NCBI GenBank assembly: GCA_019310425.1
Contig: JAFDEI010000060.1
Location: forward strand, 1-36,269
Origin: Deltaproteobacteria bacterium
GTDB lineage: Bacteria > Myxococcota_A > UBA9160 > SMWR01
Length of the DNA: 36,269 bases
Direction: 5' to 3'
Position numbers and translations under genes: made by a program
The notes under the pieces: generated by a model
What the model was told of the DNA's origin: nothing
What the model saw: only the letters and a program-made list of their open reading frames with translations
Databases searched by the model: none
Shown here: positions 1,732 to 19,686 of the stretch, piece by piece
Numbering within the stretch: the first letter of the stretch is position 1
Layout of the letters: every line of letters starts with the position of its first letter

Positions 1732-2484
1732 ATGGAATATCGGGTCGAAGAGCTCGCGGCGGAGTCGGGAGTCCGGGTCGACACGCTTCGCTTCTACCAG
1801 GCGCGCGGCCTGCTGCCCGCACCGGAACGCGTCGGGCGGGTCGCGGTTTATTGCGACGAGCACCTCGCCCGCGTTCGTCGCATCAAGGAACTCCAGCAAC
1901 AGGGGTTCACCCTCGCGCAGATCCAGCAGGTACTGGAACCCTCGGCGAGCGGCGACCCGGACCTGCTCGCCGCACTCGTCGAAGAGCGGGTCGGCGCCCG
2001 CACGCTCTCGCGCGAAGCGCTCGCTGCCGAAGCCGGTGTGCCGGATGCACTGATCCGCGCCGCCGAGAGCCAGGGGCTATTGCAGGCGGTCGAGATCGAC
2101 GGGGACGAACGCTTCAGCGAAGCCGACCTCGAGATGACACTCGCCGGCAAGGCGATCCTCGAGATCGGATTTCCGCTGCCGGCGATCCTCGAACACTCGA
2201 TCGCACACGCGCACAACATCGAGGAAACCTGTGACCGGGCCATCGAACTCTTCGACGAACACGTGCGCAAGAGCGGGCCCGCAGCGAACGACGACCGCGC
2301 CGTCACCGACGCGTTTCGCAAGCTGCTTCCGCAGGTAACACGGCTCGTCGCACTGCATTTCGAGCGAACACTCGTCAACCGCGCGCTGCAACGCCTCAAG
2401 ACCAGGGAAGAGCGCGAGGCCTTCCGCGCGGCGATCACCGCCACCGAATCGAAGAACCACGAGGTCGAGGTCGCGTGCCGCTGA
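1732..2484 (+). CDS. MerR-family transcriptional regulator
   Basis: A 250-residue protein with an N-terminal MerR winged HTH at residues 1-70. It starts YRVEELAAESGVRVDTLRFYQ, has the wing-region RGLLP..R, and then RRIKELQQQGFTLAQIQQVL, the classic MerR helix order. The C-terminal 180 residues are helical and do not match a metal-binding MerR type; I see no Cys-rich metal site. A second segment, at about residues 85-130 (LSREALAAEAGVPDALIRAAESQGLL), looks like a second degenerate HTH. It overlaps menG by 10 nt (2475-2484), making it the first gene of the menaquinone operon, which it may regulate. The ligand is unknown. No clear ribosome-binding site precedes the ATG. Confidence 0.88.
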   Translation: MEYRVEELAAESGVRVDTLRFYQARGLLPAPERVGRVAVYCDEHLARVRRIKELQQQGFTLAQIQQVLEPSASGDPDLLAALVEERVGARTLSREALAAEAGVPDALIRAAESQGLLQAVEIDGDERFSEADLEMTLAGKAILEIGFPLPAILEHSIAHAHNIEETCDRAIELFDEHVRKSGPAANDDRAVTDAFRKLLPQVTRLVALHFERTLVNRALQRLKTREEREAFRAAITATESKNHEVEVACR

Positions 2485-3182
2485 ACGCCCTTCCCAGTCA
2501 CGAAGACAAGCATGCAACGGTCCGGTCCATGTTCGACCGCATCGCACCGCGCTACGACCGCATGAACCGGCTGCTTACTGCGGGCCTCGACCAGCGTTGG
2601 CGACGCGCGGCGCTCGACACCATCCGCGTGGGTTCCGGCGATCGCGTGCTCGACCTTGCCTCGGGAACCGGCGATCTCGCCGAGCTCGCAGCAGCCCGCG
2701 GCGCCGAAGTGATCGCGGTCGACTTTGCCGGCGAGATGCTCCGAAGCGCACAAAAACGCGGCATCCGCGCCGCCCTCGTGCAGGCGGACGGAGAAAAGCT
2801 GCCGCTTCCCGACCGCAGCGCGAACGTCGCCGTCTGCGGTTTCGCACTGCGGAACTTCGTCTCGCTGCCCAACATCTTCCGCGAGCTCGCGCGTGTACTC
2901 GAACCGGGCGGCCGCATCGCGCTGATCGACGTCGACCGCCCCACCACGCCCGTCATCCGCCAGGGCCACGCCTTCTATTTCGACCGCGTCGTGCCATTCA
3001 TCGGCGGGCTGCTGTCGGACCGCGCCGCTTACGCCTACCTGCCGGCCTCGACCGCCTACCTTCCACCCGAAGCCGAGCTGATCGAAATGCTGCGACGCGC
3101 GGGCTTCGAAGACGTGCAGCGCACTTCGCACCTGCTCGGCGCGGTCCAGACCCTGACGGGTGTCCGAGGCAAGACGACGTGA
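2475..3182 (+). CDS. menG: demethylmenaquinone methyltransferase (UbiE/MenG)
   Basis: This is a class I SAM-dependent methyltransferase of 235 residues that would methylate demethylmenaquinone, the last step of menaquinone synthesis. The N-terminus has the UbiE signature FDRIAPRYDRMNRLLTAGLD (residues 20-39). SAM motif I is VLDLASGTGD at 58-67, and the post-motif RNF segment FALRNFVSLPN is present. The GTG start at 2475 lies inside the 3' end of merR (10-nt overlap) with GAGG just upstream. The stop overlaps the menF GTG (GTGA at 3179-3182). Because all other genes of the unit are men genes, I call it menG; a role in ubiquinone synthesis is unlikely here but cannot be excluded. Confidence 0.93.
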   Translation: MPLNALPSHEDKHATVRSMFDRIAPRYDRMNRLLTAGLDQRWRRAALDTIRVGSGDRVLDLASGTGDLAELAAARGAEVIAVDFAGEMLRSAQKRGIRAALVQADGEKLPLPDRSANVAVCGFALRNFVSLPNIFRELARVLEPGGRIALIDVDRPTTPVIRQGHAFYFDRVVPFIGGLLSDRAAYAYLPASTAYLPPEAELIEMLRRAGFEDVQRTSHLLGAVQTLTGVRGKTT

Positions 3183-4451
3183 CGGCCGAAACACGAACTC
3201 GCTCGCTGCACGATGCGGCCGTGGCGGCCGTCCGCGGAGCACAGACCGATGGTCAACCGCATTGGGTCGCGCTTCGCGCACGGGTGCCCGCGCACGACGG
3301 CCTCGAATTCTTCGACACCGCGCCGCAGGACGACCGATTCCACTGGGAACGCCCCGACCAGCAGCTCGCGATTACCGGTCTCGGCTGCGCGTTCTCGATC
3401 GAAGCCGAAGGTGACGACCGATTCGACGTTGCGGCGCGTGCAGCCCGCGAGTTGTTCGAGAACCTCCACGTCGCGGGCGAGTCCGGCCCGCGACACAGCG
3501 GGCCGCTACTCGTCGGCGGCTTCGCGTTCGCCGCAACACCATCGCGGCAGATGGCCTGGCGCGACTTTTCTCCGTGCCATTTCACGCTGCCGTCCATGCT
3601 GTTCGCACGTGAACGCGACGACGCCTGGTGCACCCTCGTTCAGCGTATCGACGCAGACGACGACCCCGGAGCCATTGCCACCGCACTGAGCGGGGCGATG
3701 CAGTCACGGATCGCCTCGCAGCCCGGCATCCCTCATGCACGATCACGACCCACCGGCACGAGCGATGCCGCGGCGTTTTCGATCCATGCGGACCAGCCGC
3801 ACGCGGACTACCGCGAGCGCGTCGAAGCTGCACTCGCCGAAATTCGTGCGGGCGACCTGGAGAAAGTCGTGCTTGCACGTTCGCTCCGAGTCGACTGTGA
3901 ATCGCCGATCGACACCGGCCGACTGCTCGACGCGCGGCGCGACGCCGGAACACCTGGTCCGGCTCACGGACGGCCGAGTGGAAACGGCGGCCGTCGCGGG
4001 CTCGGCGCCGCGCAGCGGCGACCCCGAGGCTGACGCCCACCACGGGCGGTGCTTGCTCGAGAGCAAGAAGGAACAGGCCGAGCACGCCATCGTGGTGCGT
4101 GCGCTGCGCGCCGCACTCGAAACGTGTTGCGATGAACTCAGCATTCCCGAATCGCCGCAGCTGCTCCGCCTCGGCGAGATCCAGCACCTCGAAACCGCGA
4201 TCCACGGAAACCTCATCAACGAGCAGTCCATCCTCGAGCTGGTCGGCCGGCTCCATCCGACCCCGGCGGTCGGCGGCGCACCGAGGGCAGCCGCCAACGA
4301 GTGGATTGCCGCGCGCGAAGGCCTCGACCGCGGCTGGTACGCGGGCCCGGTCGGCTTCGTCGACTCGAGCGGCGACGGTGAATTCTGCGTGGCGCTGCGC
4401 GAGACTCGCCTGAAGTTCCACGCAATGCTGGCGCCACTTCTGGAGGTGTGA
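3179..4451 (+). pseudogene. menF: isochorismate synthase menF, frameshifted with two apparent deletions
   Basis: MenF converts chorismate to isochorismate, the first step of the classical menaquinone route. The first part (GTG at 3179, 4-nt overlap with menG) reads in one frame to LLDARR, near 3932-3941. It includes the general-base lysine segment LEKVVLARSLRV. From there the conserved family sequence continues in the +1 frame as GATPEHLVRLTDGRVETAAV and runs through HLVT-type and HPTPAVGGAPR motifs to 4451. Two pieces that MenF/EntC/TrpE-type enzymes normally carry are absent: about 20-25 residues between LLDARR and GATPEHL, and about 28 residues between GEFCVALR and RETRLKF (near 4400), which should contain GAGIVxGSxPxxE with a Mg-binding glutamate. 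The total is 1273 nt, not a multiple of three. Either a pseudogene or an assembly error. Confidence 0.85.
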
Positions 4452-4453
4452 CG

Positions 4454-6283
4454 ATGGGCGCCACCGTCGCCGAGGCCCCGAATCACGCCTACGCCTTCAC
4501 CACCGCCTTCTTCGAAGAACTCGTACGCGCGGGCGTGCGCAACGTCTGCCTCTGCCCCGGCTCACGGTCGACGCCGCTCGCGGTCGCGACGGCCCAACAG
4601 CCCGAGTTACGCTGCTGGACTCACATCGACGAGCGCTCGGCGGCATTCTTCGCACTGGGCCTCGCGAAAGCCTCTTGCGAGCCGGTCGCGCTGGTCTGTA
4701 CCTCCGGCACCGCGGCGGCAAATTTCCTGCCTGCCGTCGTCGAGGCCCACTACGCGGGCGTTCCGCTGCTGCTCCTCACCGCAGACCGTCCACCCGAACT
4801 TCGCGATCGCGGAGCCGGCCAGACGATCGACCAACTCCACCTCTTCGGGCGCCATGTGCGCTGGTTCGCCGAGGCCGCGCTGCCGAGCGCCGATGGCGAG
4901 ATGCTGCGCTACGCACGAGCGCTGGCGAGCCGTGCAGTGGGCGTTGCAAAGCGGCGGCCGGCGGGGCCCGTCCACCTGAACCTGCCGTTCCGCAAACCGC
5001 TGGAGCCGCGGCCGACCCCGGGTGACGTCGCGCCGGATTTGCGCGAGCGCGACCCGCTAGCAGCTGCCGGGCGCGAAGCAGGACCGTTCACCGACGTGAT
5101 CGAACCGCTCGCCGTGCCCCCCCCGGCTGCAGTCGTGGGCATAGCCGAGCTCGTGCGCGCGTATCCGCGCGGCGTGATCGCGTGCGGACCGATCGACGCG
5201 GAACCCGGCCTGGCCGCAGCCGTGTCGGGACTCGCGCGCCGCTCGGGCTGGCCCGTGCTCGCCGAACCGACAGCGCAGCTCCGCTGCGGACCTCACACGG
5301 GAGACGCCGCGATCATCGCAACCTCGGACTTGTTCCTGCGGAACGAGACATTCGCTGCCGATCACGCGCCCGACGTCGTGCTGCGGATCGGCGCCACACC
5401 CACAAGCGCCGCACAGCGACGTTGGATCGAGCGCCACACACCGCCTCACCTGCTGTTGATCGACCCGGAGCACACCTGGAACGACCCGAGCCAGCTCGCG
5501 TCTCAGGTGATCGCGGTCGATCCGACGCGCTTCTGCGTCGACGTCAGTGCCGAACTCGACCGCGGCCCGGTCGCCGCGCAAAGCCCCTGGCTCGAGGCCT
5601 TCGTCGACGCGGATCGACGCGCGAACGCGGCCATCGAAATGGTCCTCGCAGGCGACAACAGCCTGCTCGAGCCGCGGGCTGTGCGGGAAATCGCAGCCAC
5701 GCTCCCCGATGACGCGCTCCTCTACGTGTCGAACAGCATGCCGGTCCGCGACCTCGATGCCTTCCTTCCCGTGTCTTCCCGCCCTCTCCGCGTGCTCTGC
5801 AACCGCGGCGCAAACGGAATCGACGGGATGATCTCGAGCGCACTCGGCGCCGCAGCCGCGAATTGCGGCCGCGTCGTGCTGCTCACCGGCGACCTTGCGT
5901 TCGCGCACGATCTCGGCGGCCTGCTGGCCGCACGACGGCACGAGCTGCACGCCACCATCGTGGTGTTCAACAACGACGGTGGCGGGATCTTCTCGTATCT
6001 TCCGATCGCCGACTACGCCGACGAGGTCGATTTCGAAGCGAACTTCCGAACGCCTCTCGGCATCGATTTCGAGCCAGCGGCAGCGACGTTCGGCGTACGT
6101 TTCACGCGCGTGGGCTCCTGGGAACATCTCCGCACCGCACTGAAGGAGAGTGCGGACACAGCCGAGACCTGTGTCATCGAAATTCCGATCGACCGCGACC
6201 GCAGCGTGTCGCACCATCGTGCGATCGAAGCTGCCGTTGGAGCTGCGATCGCGGGCGACCCCGCCGACCAGGGCACGCGTTGA
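4454..6283 (+). CDS. menD: SEPHCHC synthase (MenD)
   Basis: A ThDP-dependent enzyme of 609 residues that adds the succinyl semialdehyde carbanion from 2-oxoglutarate to isochorismate. The N-terminal PYR domain has CPGSRSTP (about residues 34-41) and the activating Glu60 in HIDERSAAFFALG, followed by CTSGTAAANFLPAVVEA. The C-terminal PP domain shows NRGANGIDG, then GDLAFAHDLGGL and NNDGGGIFSYLP (about residues 478-512), the ThDP-Mg binding motif. I prefer ATG at 4454 over GTG at 4448: GGAGG at 4442-4446 is 7 nt from the ATG but only 1 nt from the GTG. It follows menF directly and its stop overlaps the menH TTG. It is intact, in contrast to menF. Confidence 0.95.
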   Translation: MGATVAEAPNHAYAFTTAFFEELVRAGVRNVCLCPGSRSTPLAVATAQQPELRCWTHIDERSAAFFALGLAKASCEPVALVCTSGTAAANFLPAVVEAHYAGVPLLLLTADRPPELRDRGAGQTIDQLHLFGRHVRWFAEAALPSADGEMLRYARALASRAVGVAKRRPAGPVHLNLPFRKPLEPRPTPGDVAPDLRERDPLAAAGREAGPFTDVIEPLAVPPPAAVVGIAELVRAYPRGVIACGPIDAEPGLAAAVSGLARRSGWPVLAEPTAQLRCGPHTGDAAIIATSDLFLRNETFAADHAPDVVLRIGATPTSAAQRRWIERHTPPHLLLIDPEHTWNDPSQLASQVIAVDPTRFCVDVSAELDRGPVAAQSPWLEAFVDADRRANAAIEMVLAGDNSLLEPRAVREIAATLPDDALLYVSNSMPVRDLDAFLPVSSRPLRVLCNRGANGIDGMISSALGAAAANCGRVVLLTGDLAFAHDLGGLLAARRHELHATIVVFNNDGGGIFSYLPIADYADEVDFEANFRTPLGIDFEPAAATFGVRFTRVGSWEHLRTALKESADTAETCVIEIPIDRDRSVSHHRAIEAAVGAAIAGDPADQGTR

Positions 6284-7143
6284 AAACCGACGAGCACCGC
6301 ATCCGCAGCGGCGGCGTCGAACTGCACGCGCTGCTCGATGGCGACGGAATACCGGTGGTGATTCTGCATGGATTCACGGGCTCGTGCGCCAGCGTCGAAG
6401 GCATCGCTCGCGACCTGAGCGACCACCACAGGATGTTGCGGATCGACTTCATCGGGCATGGGGCAAGCGATGCGCCGGCCGAACGTGAGCCGTACCATTT
6501 CGACCGCTGTGTCGACCAGATCGCGGACGTCATCGGCCAGCTCGCCCACGGGCCCGCACACCTCATCGGTTATTCGATGGGCGGCCGAGTCGCACTCGGG
6601 CTCTGCGTCGCGCGGCCCGAACTCGTGAAGTCTGCAACGGTGATCGGCGCTCGTGCGGGCATCGAGAATGCGGCGGAACGCGCGGAGCGGGTGCGCGACG
6701 ACGAAGCACTCGCGGACTCCATCGAGCGCGAGGGCGTCCCCGCGTTCGTCACGCGCTGGATGGCGCTGCCGTTGTTCGCAAGCCAACGGCGGCTCGGCAC
6801 CGCACGTCTCGCCCAGGAGCGTAAACAACGACTCGCGAACCGCGCACACGGCCTCGCCAATTCGCTCCGCGCCATGGGGGCCGGAGCGCAACCACCACTA
6901 CATGCGCGACTCGCCGAGATCTGCGCGCCGGTCTGTCTCGTCGTCGGCGATGAAGACGCGCGCTTCGCCGGAATCGCGAACGCGCTCGCAGACGACCTCC
7001 CGCACGCGCGAGTCGAGACGATCCCCGGATCCGGGCACGCGGCACATATCGAGAACCCGGAAGCCTTCCTGAAGGTCGTGCGCGCCTTCATCGACGAGGT
7101 CGAAGCTCAGCGGGCCCACCCCGAGGATCCCCACGCCGCATGA
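6280..7143 (+). CDS. menH: SHCHC synthase (MenH), alpha/beta hydrolase fold
   Basis: A 287-residue alpha/beta hydrolase-fold lyase that eliminates pyruvate from SEPHCHC to give SHCHC. It has the MenH-type HGFTGS motif (residues 30-35), IDFIGHGASD, the nucleophile Ser99 in GYSMGGRVAL, an acid in VVGDEDARF (Asp226 likely) and His253 in SGHAAHIENP. The N-terminal fold begins at the TTG at 6280 (TTGA overlap with the menD stop). No closer ATG or GTG would preserve the first strand, so a TTG start is likely. The MenH assignment over a generic hydrolase rests on position between menD and menA plus the motif pattern. Confidence 0.9.
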   Translation: MKTDEHRIRSGGVELHALLDGDGIPVVILHGFTGSCASVEGIARDLSDHHRMLRIDFIGHGASDAPAEREPYHFDRCVDQIADVIGQLAHGPAHLIGYSMGGRVALGLCVARPELVKSATVIGARAGIENAAERAERVRDDEALADSIEREGVPAFVTRWMALPLFASQRRLGTARLAQERKQRLANRAHGLANSLRAMGAGAQPPLHARLAEICAPVCLVVGDEDARFAGIANALADDLPHARVETIPGSGHAAHIENPEAFLKVVRAFIDEVEAQRAHPEDPHAA

Positions 7144-7231
7144 CCGCAGCATACGTCCTGATCGCGAGCAGCATCCGGAAGCACTCGAAACTCCACCGCG
7201 AGGCACACCCACCCATGAGGTTGCAACTCCG

Positions 7232-8137
7232 ATGGCGACGCTAGAGACCTCGCCGCGGCCCCGCGGGTTGCGAGTGTGGTTGCTCGCGGCACGCCCACGC
7301 ACGCTGCCGGTCGCGTTGGCTCCCGTGCTCGTCGGTACCGCGCTCGCAATCGCCGAAGGTTCTGCACGGGCGCTGCCGGCCACGGCCGCACTGCTCGGCG
7401 CACTGCTGCTCCAGATCGGCGCAAACTTCGCCAACGACTTGTTCGACGCCGAGAAGGGCGCCGACGGCGATGACCGCATCGGCCCGCCGCGCGCGATGCA
7501 GCTCGGTCTCGTCAACGCCGAGCAGATGCGCTTCGCGATTGCGTGCAGCTTCGGCGCAGCGGCCCTGGTCGGCGCCTACCTGGTGTTCGTGGGGGGCTGG
7601 CCGATCGTCGTGATCGGACTGGCATCGATCGCAGCCGCCCTCGCCTACACGGGCGGCCCGTTCCCGTTCGGCTACCGCGGGCTCGGCGACATCGCGGTGT
7701 TCGTATTCTTCGGGCCGGTCGCGGTTGCGGGCACCCACTATGTACAGGCGCTGTCACCGTCGGGGCTCGCGCTCGCGGCGTCGTTGCCGATCGGCGCCCT
7801 CGCGACCGCGATCCTGGTGGTGAACAACCTGCGCGACATCGACTCCGATGCCCGCGTCGGAAAACGCACGCTCGCGGTGCGAATCGGCTCGCGCGCGACG
7901 CGGATCGAATACGCGAGCCTGCTCGTATTCGCCTACGCGATCGTGCCGGACTTCTGGTTGCTCGGCGTCGCTTCGCCGTGGGTCGCGCTCCCGTTGCTGA
8001 CCTTGCCATGGGCGCTCGGGCTCGTGCGCCGCATCGCGGCGTCCTGCGACGGGCCGACACTCAATCAGGCGCTCGCCGACACCGCGCGACTCACGCTCGC
8101 GTTCTCGCTGTTGTTCTCGATCGGTTGGTTGCTGTGA
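7232..8137 (+). CDS. menA: 1,4-dihydroxy-2-naphthoate polyprenyltransferase (MenA)
   Basis: A 301-residue integral membrane prenyltransferase of the UbiA family that attaches the polyprenyl chain to DHNA. The first Mg-diphosphate motif is GANFANDLFDAEKGAD (Asn68-Asp69..Asp72). The second is the conserved NNLRDIDSDARVGKRTLAVRIG at about residues 190-212. Eight or nine hydrophobic segments cover most of the chain. The RPRTLPVALAPVLVGTALA N-terminus is typical of MenA rather than UbiA. It is separated from menH by 88 nt, the only sizeable gap in the operon, and overlaps menC by 4 nt (GTGA at 8134-8137). Confidence 0.95.
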   Translation: MATLETSPRPRGLRVWLLAARPRTLPVALAPVLVGTALAIAEGSARALPATAALLGALLLQIGANFANDLFDAEKGADGDDRIGPPRAMQLGLVNAEQMRFAIACSFGAAALVGAYLVFVGGWPIVVIGLASIAAALAYTGGPFPFGYRGLGDIAVFVFFGPVAVAGTHYVQALSPSGLALAASLPIGALATAILVVNNLRDIDSDARVGKRTLAVRIGSRATRIEYASLLVFAYAIVPDFWLLGVASPWVALPLLTLPWALGLVRRIAASCDGPTLNQALADTARLTLAFSLLFSIGWLL

Positions 8138-9252
8138 AGATCATCCGCGCGCGGGTCATTCCGATCCGTCTCGCCCTGGCTGAGCCGATCGCGACCTCTC
8201 GCGGCGAAATTCGAATACGTGAGGGTGCCTTGATCGAGCTCGTTTCCGAGTCGGGCACTCGAGGTTGGGGTGAAGCGTTGCCCTTGCCGGGTTTCGGGCT
8301 CGAGACTGCCGAAGAAGCCGTAGTGGCGCTCGAAGCGATCGGCCGGGCACTCGTCGCCGAAGAGTTCGCGGGAGTGGACACGGCGCTCGACTGCGCCGAC
8401 GAAACCGCCCCGACCGCGAAAGCCGCCCGTGCCGCTGCCGACGTCGCGTTGCACGATTTAGCCGCACGTGAGGCGGGTGTCGCACTCGCGGCGTTGTTCG
8501 AATCCTCACCGCTGCGGCAAGTCACGCTGAACGCGCTGGTCCGCGGCACGTCGCCCGCTGAGCTCGCCGCATCCGCGCGCGCTGCAGTCCGGCGGGGCCA
8601 TCGCACGCTGAAGCTCAAATTGCTGGGCGGCGATCTCGACCGCGACGTCGCGCGCGTCGCGGCCGTGCGGGGCGCAATCGGCTACGGCCCACACCTGCGT
8701 CTCGACGCAAACGAAGCCTGGGAAGAAGACCGCGCGCTCGCCGCGGTTGCTCGTCTCGACGCTTTCAGCATCGAATTTCTCGAACAACCGATCGCGGCCG
8801 ATGATCTCGGCGCACTCGCGCGCGTGCGTGCCGCTTCGCCGATCGCAATCGCAGCCGACGAGGCGGTTCGCGACCCCGCATCGGCGGCGCGGATCCTCGT
8901 TGAAGGTGCCGCCGACGTTCTGATACTGAAGCCCGCCGCGCTGGGAGGGCTGCGCGCAGCCCGGCGTATCGCCGAGGAGGCGGAGCGTGCCGGAGTCGAC
9001 GCGCTCGTGACGTCGTTCCTCGATTCGAGCCTCGGAATCGCCGCCGCACTCCAGTTGGCCGCGTCGCTCCCGCGCGCCACCCACGCCGCGGGCCTCGCGA
9101 CAGCCCCGCTGTTGGCAGAGGATCTCGCGACTCCACTCGCGATCGTGGACGGATCGATGGCACTGCCCGAAACAGCCGGCCTCGGGCTTCGACCCGACCC
9201 CGAGGCGCTCGAACGCTGCACCCACGGACGAACGCGCGAGGTTCGACAATGA
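8134..9252 (+). CDS. menC: o-succinylbenzoate synthase (MenC)
   Basis: An enolase-superfamily dehydratase of 372 residues that converts SHCHC to o-succinylbenzoate. The catalytic and metal ligands are visible in order: Lys160-x-Lys162 (LKLKLLGG), Asp191 (RLDANEAW), Glu217 (IEFLEQP), Asp242 (AADEAV) and Lys266 (LKPAALGG). The start is GTG at 8134, coupled to the menA stop; the first residues VKIIRARVIPIRL match the usual MenC N-terminus. The stop overlaps the menE ATG (ATGA at 9249-9252). OSBS enzymes can also be promiscuous N-acylamino acid racemases, but the operon makes the MenC role clear. Confidence 0.94.
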   Translation: MKIIRARVIPIRLALAEPIATSRGEIRIREGALIELVSESGTRGWGEALPLPGFGLETAEEAVVALEAIGRALVAEEFAGVDTALDCADETAPTAKAARAAADVALHDLAAREAGVALAALFESSPLRQVTLNALVRGTSPAELAASARAAVRRGHRTLKLKLLGGDLDRDVARVAAVRGAIGYGPHLRLDANEAWEEDRALAAVARLDAFSIEFLEQPIAADDLGALARVRAASPIAIAADEAVRDPASAARILVEGAADVLILKPAALGGLRAARRIAEEAERAGVDALVTSFLDSSLGIAAALQLAASLPRATHAAGLATAPLLAEDLATPLAIVDGSMALPETAGLGLRPDPEALERCTHGRTREVRQ

Positions 9253-10754
9253 GCGCGATTGCGCCGTGGCTCGGCGCGCGCGCGCAGGTCTCGGGTCCAC
9301 TCCCAGCGATCGAGTGCAACGGCGCCGTGCTCAGCTACGCGGAGCTGAGCACCCGTGCGCACGAGGCTGCAGGGCATCTCGCCGAACTCGGAATCCGCCA
9401 TGGCGATGTCGTCGCGCTGTTGCTCGAAAACGGCGTGCCGTTCGTCGAACTGTTGTACGCCGCGGTGCTCTCGGGTGCGGTCCTGCTACCTCTCAATCTC
9501 CGTCTCACCCCGACCGAGTTGGGAGTGCAGCTGCGCGAAGCACGGGCCCGATTGCTGGTACACGGCAATGGCGCGATCGCGGAGCGTGCGCGTGCCGCCG
9601 CCCCGCCTGGAACCCGCACCTTGGAGATCGCCAGCGCGCGGCGCGCGTTCGAGCGCGCGCCGGAATCCGAACGCACCGATGCAATGTTCACGCAGGTCCG
9701 ACCGGACTCCACTCTCGCCCTGTTGTTTACTTCGGGCACCTCCGGCACACCAAAGGGGACCGAACTCACGCACGCGAACTTCCAATGGAGTGCGCTGGCA
9801 TCGGCGGCCCACCTCGGCGCCGACCCCCGCGACCGCTGGCTCGCCTGTATGCCGTTGTTTCACGTCGGCGGATTGTCGATCCTGATTCGCGCGCTGCTCT
9901 ACGGAAATTCCGTCGTGGTGCATGAGCGCTTCGACGCCGTCTCGGTCGACCGCGCTCTCGACCGAGATGGCGTCACCCATGTGTCTCTGGTCGCTACCAT
10001 GCTCGCGCGCATCCTCGACGTGCGCGGCTCGCGGCCCGCGCCGGACACGCTGCGCTGCGTACTCCTCGGCGGTGGCCCGGCACCGACGGACCTGATCGAC
10101 CACGCGACCCTTCTCGGCTTTCCCATCGCGCCGACCTATGGCCTGACGGAAGCCGCCTCGCAGGTCGCCACGCGACCGCCCGGGTCTGGCACTGCGGTTG
10201 CGGGAGCGGGCCTCGTGCCCCTCATCGGAAACGAGCTGCGCATCGTCGCAGAGAACGGCCGCGATTGCGCCGACGGCGACGCCGGCGAGCTGTGGCTGCG
10301 CGGTCCGACCGTAATGCGTGGCTATCGACAACAGCCCGCAGAAACCGCATCCGCGCTCGCAGGCGGTTGGCTCCACACGGGTGACGTCGCGATTCGGGCC
10401 GGCGACGGGACACTCACGATTCTCGCGCGGCGCAGCGACCTGATCGTCTCCGGTGGAGAGAACGTCTATCCGGCGGAAGTCGAGGCGGCACTGTGCGAAC
10501 ACCCGGCAGTCGTCGACGCCGCGGTCGCCGCGGTCGCGGACCCGGAATTCGGCCAGCGCCCCGCCGCCTGGCTGGTCTTCCACCCGGACGCGCACGAGGT
10601 TCCCGCTGCGGATGCGTTGCGGCAATTCTGCCGACAGCGCCTGGCAGCCTTCAAGGTTCCAGTCCGCTTCGAGCGCCTCGATGCCCTGCCCCGCACCGCG
10701 TCGGGAAAGCTGAAGCGCGGGGAGCTGAAGTCCAAAACGCCCCTTTCCGGCTGA
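9249..10754 (+). CDS. menE: o-succinylbenzoate-CoA ligase (MenE)
   Basis: A 501-residue ANL-superfamily adenylating enzyme that activates o-succinylbenzoate with ATP and CoA. The P-loop TSGTSGTPKG is at residues 161-170, the A5-type motif PTYGLTEAASQ is near 296-306, TGDVAIR is near 378-384, and the C-terminal catalytic lysine is Lys487 in TASGKLKR. The ATG overlaps the menC stop, with GAGG about 8 nt upstream. It is the last gene of the unit. The next pathway enzyme, MenB, is not in this window, nor is a dedicated DHNA-CoA thioesterase. Confidence 0.94.
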   Translation: MSAIAPWLGARAQVSGPLPAIECNGAVLSYAELSTRAHEAAGHLAELGIRHGDVVALLLENGVPFVELLYAAVLSGAVLLPLNLRLTPTELGVQLREARARLLVHGNGAIAERARAAAPPGTRTLEIASARRAFERAPESERTDAMFTQVRPDSTLALLFTSGTSGTPKGTELTHANFQWSALASAAHLGADPRDRWLACMPLFHVGGLSILIRALLYGNSVVVHERFDAVSVDRALDRDGVTHVSLVATMLARILDVRGSRPAPDTLRCVLLGGGPAPTDLIDHATLLGFPIAPTYGLTEAASQVATRPPGSGTAVAGAGLVPLIGNELRIVAENGRDCADGDAGELWLRGPTVMRGYRQQPAETASALAGGWLHTGDVAIRAGDGTLTILARRSDLIVSGGENVYPAEVEAALCEHPAVVDAAVAAVADPEFGQRPAAWLVFHPDAHEVPAADALRQFCRQRLAAFKVPVRFERLDALPRTASGKLKRGELKSKTPLSG

Positions 10755-16344: not shown

Positions 16345-17460
16345 TCAGCGGCGCCCGTCGCGAGTTCCGGCATTGCTTTGGCCTGGAATCGACCCCATCT
16401 TCGATCTACGGCCGATCAGGTGCACTTCCTCGGGCCGAACCGACAGCGTCAGCGAGTCACCCGCTGCGAGCGTCCGCGCCAGACCGCGGCCCGCGATCAG
16501 ATGCGTGCGAAGCTCGAAACCGGCCCAGTCGAGCGTGAGTGTCGCCGCCACACCGTCGGAAACCAGGTGTCGCAGCACGCCTTTCCCGATCGAAATCCCC
16601 TCTCCGCGTCCGACATCGACCTTCAGGTGTTCGGGCCGGATCCCGATCCAGACCGGCGTTCCGACGGCGGGAGCGACCGGAACCGGAACGCGATGCAGCG
16701 CATCGACCTCGACCCAACACGTGCCGTCGCCGGTGGGTGCGGCAACTTGGCCCGCGATCAGGTTCGACATGCCGACGATGCGAGCAACATCGAGGTCTAT
16801 CGGCCGATTCAGCACCGCTTCGCGCTGGCCACACTGAACCAGTGAACCACTTTTCAGAACCGCGATGCGGTCCGCGAGCAGGAGCGCGCGGCGAAGGTCA
16901 TGCGTCACGACCGCCACCGCGACATCGGTCTCGACGATGGCTCGCCGGAGATCCAACGAGAGTGACTCCTGCCCGGCCGCGTCGAGGTCTTCGAACGGCT
17001 CGTCGAGCAGCAGTACCGCTGGGCGCAGCGCAAACGCCCGCGCGAGCGTGAGCCGCCGCGTTTCGCCGCCCGAAAGCGTCGCGGCGTTGCGCGCAGTGAG
17101 TCGCGCAATCCCGAAGCGCTCCAGCGATTCGCGCGTTCGACGCTCCGCTTCGCCTCGCGAAAGCCGTGCCCCGAGCAGCGCTACGCGCAGGTTGTGCTCG
17201 ACCGTCCCCGCAAACACGATCGGGCGCTGAAAGACCATCGTGACCGGACCGCTCGCACGTCGCTCGATACGCCCTGCAGCCGGAGCTTCGAGACCCGCGA
17301 GCGCACGTAGCAACGTGCTCTTGCCCGCGCCGTTGTGACCCAGCACGGCGAGCACCTCTCCCGACGAAATACCGAGCGAAGAAACGCTTAGTTCGAAGCT
17401 ACCCGTCCGATCACTACGGCGAACGATGAGATCGCAGGCTTCGAGCGCCGGGGCGGTCAT
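16345..17460 (-). CDS. tupC: tungstate ABC transporter ATP-binding protein
   Basis: A 371-residue ATPase. Walker A is GHNGAGKST (residues 41-49), the signature is LSGGE (129-133), Walker B is VLLLDEPF (149-156) and the H-loop is His187. After about residue 230 there is an OB/TOBE-type domain, as in ModC/WtpC (MSNLIAGQV, then VWIGIRPEHLKV and LSVRPEEVHLIG). The ATG at 17460 overlaps the tupB stop (ATGA). It should energise uptake of tungstate (or molybdate) bound by TupA. The C-terminal 15 residues are unconserved. The TOBE portion may sense oxyanion as in ModC, but this is inference. Confidence 0.9.
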   Translation of the reverse strand: MTAPALEACDLIVRRSDRTGSFELSVSSLGISSGEVLAVLGHNGAGKSTLLRALAGLEAPAAGRIERRASGPVTMVFQRPIVFAGTVEHNLRVALLGARLSRGEAERRTRESLERFGIARLTARNAATLSGGETRRLTLARAFALRPAVLLLDEPFEDLDAAGQESLSLDLRRAIVETDVAVAVVTHDLRRALLLADRIAVLKSGSLVQCGQREAVLNRPIDLDVARIVGMSNLIAGQVAAPTGDGTCWVEVDALHRVPVPVAPAVGTPVWIGIRPEHLKVDVGRGEGISIGKGVLRHLVSDGVAATLTLDWAGFELRTHLIAGRGLARTLAAGDSLTLSVRPEEVHLIGRRSKMGSIPGQSNAGTRDGRR

Positions 17461-18108
17461 CGCCGCCCCGCCTGTTGTATCGCGGTAAGGACCGCCGAGA
17501 GCATCAGCATCAGGCCGAGCAACACACAAGCGAGCGCGATCGCTCGTTCGAACTCGCCCATCTCGGTAAACATCACGATCGAAGTGGTCAGCACGCGGGT
17601 CTCACCCGCGAGATTGCCCCCGACCATCAACACTGCGCCAACGCCCGAGAGAATCGAACCAAGCGCCGCACCCGAGACGGATCTCGCGAAGCAACAGCCA
17701 CGTCCTCCAAGCCGCCGGAATGCCGAGCGTTCGCGCCTGGAGATCCCAGTCCGCGTCGAGTGCACCAACCGCGGCGAGCGTGATACCAACGATGAGCGGC
17801 AACGCAATCACGACCTGCGCGATCACCATCGCCTCCATGCTGTACATCAGGCCGAGTCCGCCCAGCGGCCCGTTGCGCCATAGCAGCAACGCGAGTGTGA
17901 GCCCGACCACCACCGGCGGCGCCCCCATCCCGGCGTTCACGATTCCTACGACCGCACGTCGCCCGCGGAAGTGGGATCGTCCGAGCAGGATCCCGATCGG
18001 CAACCCGAGTGACAGCGATAGCGTCAGCGCGAAGAACGACATTCGAAGTGTGCGCGCAGTGATCTCGCCCACGAGCGGCCATGTCAACTCCGTCACGGCT
18101 GGAGTCAC
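17457..18108 (-). pseudogene. tupB: tungstate ABC transporter permease tupB, frameshifted
   Basis: This should be the membrane permease of the Tup transporter. From the GTG at 18108 (4-nt overlap with the tupA stop) the frame encodes membrane segments and the EAA-type loop DLQARTLGIPAAWRTWLLLREIRLG, ending in coding sense at about 17671. The family sequence then resumes in another frame from 17669 as AALGSILSGVGAVLMVGGN and runs to the stop at 17457. The 652-nt span is not a multiple of three. Compared with TupB relatives, about five residues are missing between the LRE..G and GVGAV segments, so a small deletion of 3n+2 nt (roughly 11-17) fits better than a single-base insertion. Flanking tupA and tupC are intact. 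Confidence 0.82.
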
Positions 18109-18950
18109 TCCTCACGCGGCCGGTCAGGCCCCTTGAACAGCGGGGTGAACAACGGCCGGCCGAACCGCTCGCCTCCGAACGCAGCGATCGTCGCCTGCGT
18201 ATCTTCGCGGATCATGAATGCGGCGAAGAGTTTTGCTCCGGTCGCATTGATCGGCTTCTCGAAGCGTGCTGGGTTCACGCGCAGCACCGAATACACGTTT
18301 CGAAGTTCGGGGTCGGGGTCCGAAAGCGCTCGGATCTCGATGCGCTTCTCGTACGCGAGATAGGTCCCGATGTCGGAAAGGGTGTAGCTGTGGCGTTCGT
18401 CGGCGACCTGAAGCGTCAGACCCATTCCGCTCCCGGTCTGGGAAAACCCCTCCCAGCTCCCGGCGGGAGCGAGCCCTGCGGCACGCAGCAGCGCGCGTTC
18501 GCGCTTGTGCGTTCCCGAATCGTCGCCGCGGCTGACGTACGGTGCCGAGGCTGCGGCGATCCGCCGAAACGCCTCCACGGCGGACTCGGCTGCGCGCACC
18601 CCTGCGGGATCCTTCGGGGGGCCCACGATCACGAAGAAGTTCTCCATGAATGGCTGCCGCTCGACGAGCACACCCGAGCGAACCAAGTCCGCCTCGGCGT
18701 CCGGTGCATGCGTGAGCAGTACGTCGACGTTGCCTTCTGCCCCCATTCGCAGCGCAGCGCCCGTACCCACCGCGATTGGCTTGACCGTGATGCCGCTCTC
18801 CGCTTGGAACGAAGGCAGTAGCGCGTCGAGCAGACCGGTATCCCGAACACTCGTGGTGGTCGCGAGCAGCAGCGTGTCGTCTTCGGCGATTGCGGGGCCG
18901 TTCTGCAACGCCACGAGAAGACAACAAAGAACAATGGAGCATTTATACAT
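18105..18950 (-). CDS. tupA: tungstate ABC transporter substrate-binding protein
   Basis: A 281-residue periplasmic binding protein. A signal peptide covers about residues 1-22 (LCCLLVALQNGPAIA). The TupA-type oxyanion-binding motif TTTSVRDTGLLD is at 31-42, and further conserved segments are VLLTHAPDAE, SRGDDSGTHKRE and the hinge-side SGMGLTLQVADER. The TTTS..DTG motif distinguishes TupA from ModA. It is the first gene of the tupABC unit, which would supply tungsten for tungstoenzymes such as aldehyde or formate oxidoreductases; none is in the window. Two Cys near the signal core do not form a clear lipobox. Confidence 0.93.
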   Translation of the reverse strand: MYKCSIVLCCLLVALQNGPAIAEDDTLLLATTTSVRDTGLLDALLPSFQAESGITVKPIAVGTGAALRMGAEGNVDVLLTHAPDAEADLVRSGVLVERQPFMENFFVIVGPPKDPAGVRAAESAVEAFRRIAAASAPYVSRGDDSGTHKRERALLRAAGLAPAGSWEGFSQTGSGMGLTLQVADERHSYTLSDIGTYLAYEKRIEIRALSDPDPELRNVYSVLRVNPARFEKPINATGAKLFAAFMIREDTQATIAAFGGERFGRPLFTPLFKGPDRPREE

Positions 18951-19254
18951 AACGACGTTTCACTCCCTACTCGAAGTCCAACGTTCGGCCCCCCGGGCGC
19001 CGAACGGCGACGATACGGCAGGTCGGTGCATCGAGTCTACGCTTGCTTTTTGCATGCGCCGTGGTGCATGATGGGGGTGAACAGCGTCTCACCGGCGGGT
19101 GAATACGGGTCGGCGAGGCCAGTGAAGCAGTCGGGTCGCATCTACTCCGCTCCCCACCTTCTCGTCGCCCTCCTGATGCCTCCCGCCAGAGCACACGCCT
19201 CCGTCCGGCACCGATCACCAACCGTGTGTGGCAGCCCAACACGGGAGGTCCGCG
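18951..19254. other. divergent intergenic region, tupA / YbaK-like
   Basis: About 304 nt between divergent genes. It must hold both promoters; I find no box pair I trust. A direct repeat TGCATG occurs twice about 14 nt apart near 19051-19070, which could be an operator but is too short to claim. Open frames in this stretch look like noise. Confidence 0.4.
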
Positions 19255-19686
19255 ATGTCCATCGCAAATACCGTCAAGTGGTATCTCGACTCCGAGCAGC
19301 TGAGCTACGAGATCCTGCAACACCCCCATACGAGTTCGAGTGCCGAAACCGCAGGCGCCGCTTACATCTGGGAGGACCAGCTCGCCAAGTCGGTCCTGCT
19401 CGAGGACCGCGTCGACCTGAAGAGGCTGCGCGAGAGTATGCATCGCCCGCTCGAGCTTGCGACCGAAGCGGAGCTCGGTGAAATCTTCGCCGACTGTGAA
19501 ATCGGCGCGGTTCCCCCGCTCGGCCAGGCCTACGGCATCCCGATGATCTACGACGATTGCCTCACGAAACTCGCGAATGTCTACTTCGAGGCCGGCGACC
19601 ACGAGGATCTCGTCTACATGGGTGGTGCGGAATTCATGCAGCTGCTCGGCAAGGCGTCGCACGCGAAGTTCTCCACGCCGATCTGA
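19255..19686 (+). CDS. YbaK/ProX-type aminoacyl-tRNA deacylase-like, core strand missing
   Basis: A 143-residue protein of the YbaK/EbsC/ProX editing-domain family, which hydrolyses misacylated tRNA in trans. Conserved parts are the N-terminal MSIANTVKWYL, HPHTSSSAETA (residues 23-33), LAKSVLLED (43-51), DCEIGAVPPLGQAYGIP and YFEAGDHEDLV. Relatives carry a strand of about 14-16 residues (typically GYxMAVxPATH) between LED and RVDLKRL. Here Asp51 is followed directly by Arg52 at nt 19407/19408, so about 45 nt appear lost in frame. That strand is part of the fold core, so activity is doubtful. The start ATG has GGGAGG 8-9 nt upstream. Confidence 0.8.
   Translation: MSIANTVKWYLDSEQLSYEILQHPHTSSSAETAGAAYIWEDQLAKSVLLEDRVDLKRLRESMHRPLELATEAELGEIFADCEIGAVPPLGQAYGIPMIYDDCLTKLANVYFEAGDHEDLVYMGGAEFMQLLGKASHAKFSTPI

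Follow-up and report, generated by a model that had tools for sequence, protein, structure and literature searches.

Enzymes of the MenF/EntC/DhbC type (models TIGR00543 and NF005459; domain PF00425) are isochorismate synthases, and the C-terminal part of MenF-type enzymes carries a GAGIVxGSxPxxE motif that we take to be the metal-binding segment. The menF gene described here follows the block order of that family, with its conserved K and GATPE blocks, and sits in a men operon; unlike the family, it lacks two conserved blocks as assembled and is split over two reading frames. For bacterial assemblies, PMC11017572 documents spurious pseudogenes that arise from sequencing and assembly and names read coverage as a main factor.

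The window, that is, the whole 36,269-nt stretch of DNA analyzed, is contig C215 of a 4.9-Mb draft assembly of 368 contigs that is 91% complete. The sampled part of this genome is ~64% GC and ~90% coding.

The assembled menF lacks two conserved blocks

The men genes of the window lie in the order menG, menF, menD, menH, menA, menC, menE across positions 2475 to 10754, with the following features.

2475 to 3182, + strand: menG/ubiE methyltransferase, intact
3179 to 3946, + strand: menF N-terminal piece in frame 2; its GTG start overlaps the menG stop, and it ends at the deletion 1 junction
3929 to 3947, + strand: deletion 1 junction in menF; ~62 nt absent compared to relatives, with a frame shift
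3936 to 4451, + strand: C-terminal piece of menF, running from GATPEHL to the stop in the shifted frame
4392 to 4409, + strand: deletion 2 junction in menF; 84 nt absent, in frame, the lost block including GAGIVxGSxPxxE
4448 to 6283, + strand: menD, intact (TIGR00173, 478.6 bits; cut-off, 244.2)
5863 to 7143, + strand: open frame holding menH (from ~6350), intact (TIGR03695, 240.4 bits; cut-off, 208.55)
7232 to 8137, + strand: menA, intact
8137 to 9252, + strand: menC, intact, the C-terminal part of an open frame at 7543 to 9252, start approximate (TIGR01927, 166.2 bits; cut-off, 130.55)
9249 to 10754, + strand: menE, intact (TIGR01923, 369.6 bits; cut-off, 330.15)

The menF reading frame from 3179 is lost at ~3936 to 3946, and the protein resumes in the next frame from the GATPEHL codons (3936). 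No single frame of the assembled gene holds a full-length chorismate-binding domain (PF00425, 257 positions): model positions 3 to 49 are matched in one frame and 65 to 226 in the other, while 227 to 257 are unmatched. The parts that remain belong to the isochorismate synthase family. The top models for the C-terminal piece were NF005459, isochorismate synthase (214 bits, E value of 4.1e-63), and TIGR00543 (192 bits, residues 5 to 164 of 175), and those for part of the N-terminal piece were DhbC (33 bits) and TIGR00543 (30 bits). Identity to the MenF proteins of relatives was 45 to 63% for the C-terminal piece and ~30 to 42%, over most of its length, for the N-terminal piece compared with their N-terminal parts.

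To size the gaps, both pieces were aligned with the menF loci of 29 relatives (29 genomes within the family and order), which a DNA similarity search had located. The K of EKVVLA is 73 nt from GATPE in the window and 45 residues (135 nt) from it in 22 of the 25 measured relatives (44, 46, and 50 residues in the other 3); deletion 1 is therefore 62 nt, a length not divisible by 3. From RGWY to ETRLK there are 24 residues in the window, 52 in 25 of the 29 relatives, and 56 to 64 in the other 4, none having fewer than 52, and this anchor comparison puts deletion 2 at 84 nt, in frame. Both missing blocks occur in all 29 loci (for the 4 relatives unmeasured at the first gap, presence was read from the alignment), and each locus has a segment corresponding to the GAGIVxGSxPxxE that is absent from the window gene. 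An earlier note on this DNA had proposed that 20 to 25 residues before GATPEHL, with a frame change, and about 28 residues before RETRLKF were missing and that the second block should hold GAGIVxGSxPxxE; each of these points agrees with the relatives. It had also stated that an uninterrupted menF in a closely related genome would indicate an assembly error; at the level of family and order, where this was tested, every one of the 29 loci was uninterrupted at the two sites. A separate scan of genome contigs for menF returned 15 loci, 8 of them at 46 to 60% identity in Myxococcales, Deltaproteobacteria, Proteobacteria, or Myxococcota MAGs and 7 at 24 to 30% identity in Bacteroidota-type records.

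Relaxed selection on menF was looked for in stops, branch length, and codon-position bias, and none of the three indicated decay; a very recent loss would look alike. Neither piece contains a stop. In a tree of 408 shared columns (the window gene and 26 of the 29 relatives, midpoint root), its root-to-tip distance was 0.75, the fifth lowest of 27 (range, 0.56 to 1.24). Differences between the C-terminal piece and five relatives were 0.18 to 0.28, 0.18 to 0.22, and 0.45 to 0.57 at codon positions 1, 2, and 3, respectively. As judged from sequence, menF is either a gene that was under selection until now or an intact one.

The rest of the menaquinone pathway is retained

The earlier note had described menG, menD, menH, menA, menC, and menE as intact, and every one of them scored above the curated cut-off of its own family. 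Compared with any relative, menG and menA have no gaps of at least 8 residues; in menD, menH, menC, and menE, such gaps appear against some relatives only. menB is on contig C76 (407 bits; cut-off, 342.7). Taken as assembled, the genome would leave the cell with six men genes in the window, plus menB on another contig, behind a dead first step.

A search for a second isochorismate synthase, which the earlier note had suggested, found none in this assembly, where PF00425 otherwise matches TrpE and PabB alone. Neither is a candidate for the role: TrpE scored 570.8 with its own model (cut-off, 517.7) and 183.1 with TIGR00543, and PabB scored 360 with its own (cut-off, 328.4) and 154.7 with TIGR00543, both below the TIGR00543 cut-off of 224.75. 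The genome likewise had no match to PF02621 (MqnA/MqnD) of the futalosine route.

The menB model matched 45 times in this genome (on C76 and elsewhere) at an E value of ≤0.001, and only one match passes the menB cut-off. The numerous crotonase-type enzymes suggest strong acyl-CoA metabolism.

Similar losses occur in unrelated genes

We compared ~640 kb of the same assembly (13%) with 1.51 Mb of G015, an assembly from the same family, and with 257 kb at the men locus of 15 other MAGs. Other genes in the assembly that holds the window were also short of ~5 to 108 nt from conserved cores, as listed below.

17460 to 18111, - strand: ABC permease (BPD_transp_1, PF00528), presumably of the tungstate TupB type; frame-breaking loss of ~17 to 23 nt near 17671
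19177 to 19683, + strand: aminoacyl-tRNA editing domain protein; in-frame loss of 39 nt near 19408
L109:5962-7065 (C172): RmlB-like (dTDP-glucose 4,6-dehydratase-like) protein; in-frame loss of 78 nt, including a YxxxK segment seen in the G015 homologue, which we take to be the catalytic segment
L140:9084-10159 (C310): histidine kinase; frame break where the H-box region, as we presume it to be, is expected
L117, ~3938 (C324): TolB, split near the N-terminal domain; apparent very small frame-shifting loss
L141, ~379 to 1142 (C63): membrane protein; two separate frame breaks in one gene, as in menF
L139: Peptidase_C26 hydrolase; 108 nt lost
L107 and L141: 46 nt and 86 nt lost, respectively, in the reference-based comparison

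Two of these broken genes, with lesions at ~17671 and ~19408, are in the window itself and had gone unmentioned in the earlier note. In the protein at 19177 to 19683, PF04073 was matched from position 40 only, and the G015 homologue has 13 more residues there. The frame scan and inspection by eye added mid-protein breaks in a DUF3604 protein, a luciferase-like monooxygenase, and an SDR. For some broken genes, Pfam searches of the halves matched one half only, and those breaks rest on the frame scan and inspection by eye.

In the reference-based test, the translated coding runs of one set served as tblastn queries against DNA from another, and an event was scored where the subject lacked at least 8 residues between conserved flanks or where the match continued in another frame. 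With the assembly that holds the window as the subject, 292 queries (best match, ≥40% identity) covered 169,857 nt and gave 8 distinct events, 4 in frame and 4 frame-breaking, all of them losses: the 62 and 84 nt of menF, the permease at ~17671 (23 nt here, 17 nt in the first pass), the 39 nt at ~19408, and those in L139, L109, L107, and L141. Put as a rate, about one such deletion falls in every 20 kb of sequence that could be compared (8 in 170 kb). With G015 as the subject (315 queries, 187,985 nt), there were no in-frame losses and four frame breaks, of net 16, 32, -4, and -34 nt, the first two being net losses; the background of this procedure is thus not zero. The 15 other MAGs gave no losses (73 queries, 58,721 nt). 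Net losses were 8 versus 2 against G015 (binomial P = 0.014) when the two menF lesions, which were the starting point of the search, are included and 6 versus 2 with them excluded (P of ~0.055 by hand calculation). In the first pass of this test, antisense and overlapping open frames served as queries and produced extra rows, all left out of the 8. These included a 12-amino-acid in-frame loss in L099 (an SDR), frame breaks in L108 as well as L099, and an 8-amino-acid difference near positions 1723 to 1900 of the window. A 72-nt linker difference in L108, seen only with this assembly as the query, was not counted either.

A reference-free frame scan with a strict filter found 13 candidate mid-coding switches in 640 kb of this assembly versus 8 in 1,514 kb of G015 (P = 0.002). 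Inspection by eye placed 9 of the 13 in the middle of proteins: menF, the permease, the DUF3604 protein, the luciferase-like monooxygenase, TolB, the SDR, the histidine kinase, and the membrane protein, which counts twice. The other 4 were judged doubtful or gene boundaries (window position 645, L103 5084, L114 10045, and L129 10483); all 8 from G015 look like places where one gene ends and another begins. Five candidates turned up in the 257 kb from the 15 other MAGs, about as often as in this assembly, but by eye they look like antisense frames. With a looser filter the scan did not separate the sets (11 in 264 kb here and 11 in 277 kb of relatives), and the candidates L111, L116, and L119 (SpoIID), seen with that filter and absent under the strict one, were not counted. 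By the reference-based test and the strict frame scan, like lesions are in excess over related assemblies, as expected of spurious pseudogenes.

No junction signature common to the lesions was found beyond menF junction 2, with the DNA of relatives serving as a proxy for the missing bases. At that junction the split point is ambiguous over shared LR codons, so the earlier note's proposal of loss between short direct repeats fits there but does not extend to the other lesions; by the same proxy, direct repeats are unsupported as a general cause outside menF junction 2. The homologues of the missing stretches are slightly GC-richer than their loci (0.65 to 0.74 versus 0.62 to 0.72).

The menF gaps are probably assembly errors

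Taken together, these sequence comparisons make it very likely that the menF gaps are errors of a draft metagenome assembly and that menF is intact in the cell. Several observations lead to this reading: many unrelated genes in the same assembly lost similar short pieces, such lesions are rare or absent in related assemblies under the same procedure, the affected functions are unrelated and often catalytic, menF is otherwise without decay, the presence of two lesions in one gene recurs in a second, unrelated gene (L141), and all 8 reference-based events are losses. Spurious pseudogenes caused by low coverage are, moreover, documented for bacterial assemblies (PMC11017572). Short stretches of ~5 to 108 nt would have been dropped and their flanks joined, at sites scattered over the contigs and in whatever gene lay there, probably because short stretches were poorly covered and the assembler spanned them with false joins. 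The raw reads should then contain the missing bases of menF; the cell would carry, between menG and menD, a normal menF of ~470 codons (the 1272 nt present and a further 146 nt) and would make menaquinone by the classical chorismate route.

The earlier note had seen a broken menF within an intact operon as odd. The gene is indeed broken as assembled, but its loss in the organism is unsupported. With comparable deletions recurring in unrelated genes of this assembly, an assembly error is the best account of an operon that is intact but for its first step. A real, recent loss of menF through two small deletions, with isochorismate or a later intermediate coming from a partner or with a second synthase left unassembled, is unlikely. 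It would suit an assembly that lacks both another isochorismate synthase and MqnA/MqnD and that, being 91% complete, could be missing another copy, and the ambiguity of junction 2 over LR codons is what slippage between short repeats would leave. However, it calls for two independent deletions in a gene with no other decay, while the same kind of loss is found in unrelated genes across the assembly and the remaining pathway (menG, menD, menH, menA, menC, and menE plus menB) is kept. Somewhat less probable again is that the isochorismate synthase was truly lost very recently, as part of a burst of small deletions throughout the genome, in an organism that keeps the other men genes of the operon and lives on isochorismate or a later intermediate supplied by neighbors.

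A lineage-wide wave of gene decay, in which many small deletions including those of menF are real, would account for the number of genes affected, but the 8 reference-based events are all losses between fully conserved flanks, and a 4.9-Mb genome with ~64% GC and ~90% coding sequence in the sample is unlike a decaying one; we regard this as very improbable. Neither menF piece has a stop in its own frame, as would be the case if the missing parts were supplied after the DNA stage (by programmed frameshifting, bypassing, split subunits, or trans-complementation) and the gene worked as it is. This last idea has next to no likelihood: the contig lacks 62 and 84 nt of conserved code, recoding cannot provide absent residues, and no separate piece carrying the missing block turned up in the genome, whose PF00425 matches are TrpE, PabB, and the two menF pieces only.

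With assembly error as the preferred explanation, it is unsafe to call gene losses or auxotrophies from this assembly, and at ~1 conserved-core deletion per 20 kb, many enzymes will seem dead or devoid of catalytic residues. Were the lesions real, they would amount to an unusual burst of genome decay together with a cross-fed quinone pathway.

Comparison with described spurious pseudogenes

The lesions resemble the spurious pseudogenes of PMC11017572 in that genes are broken without other decay and in excess over related assemblies. They differ in kind and setting: that work concerns frameshifts and internal stops, whereas the lesions here remove as many as 108 nt, in some cases in frame, and lie in a metagenome assembly.
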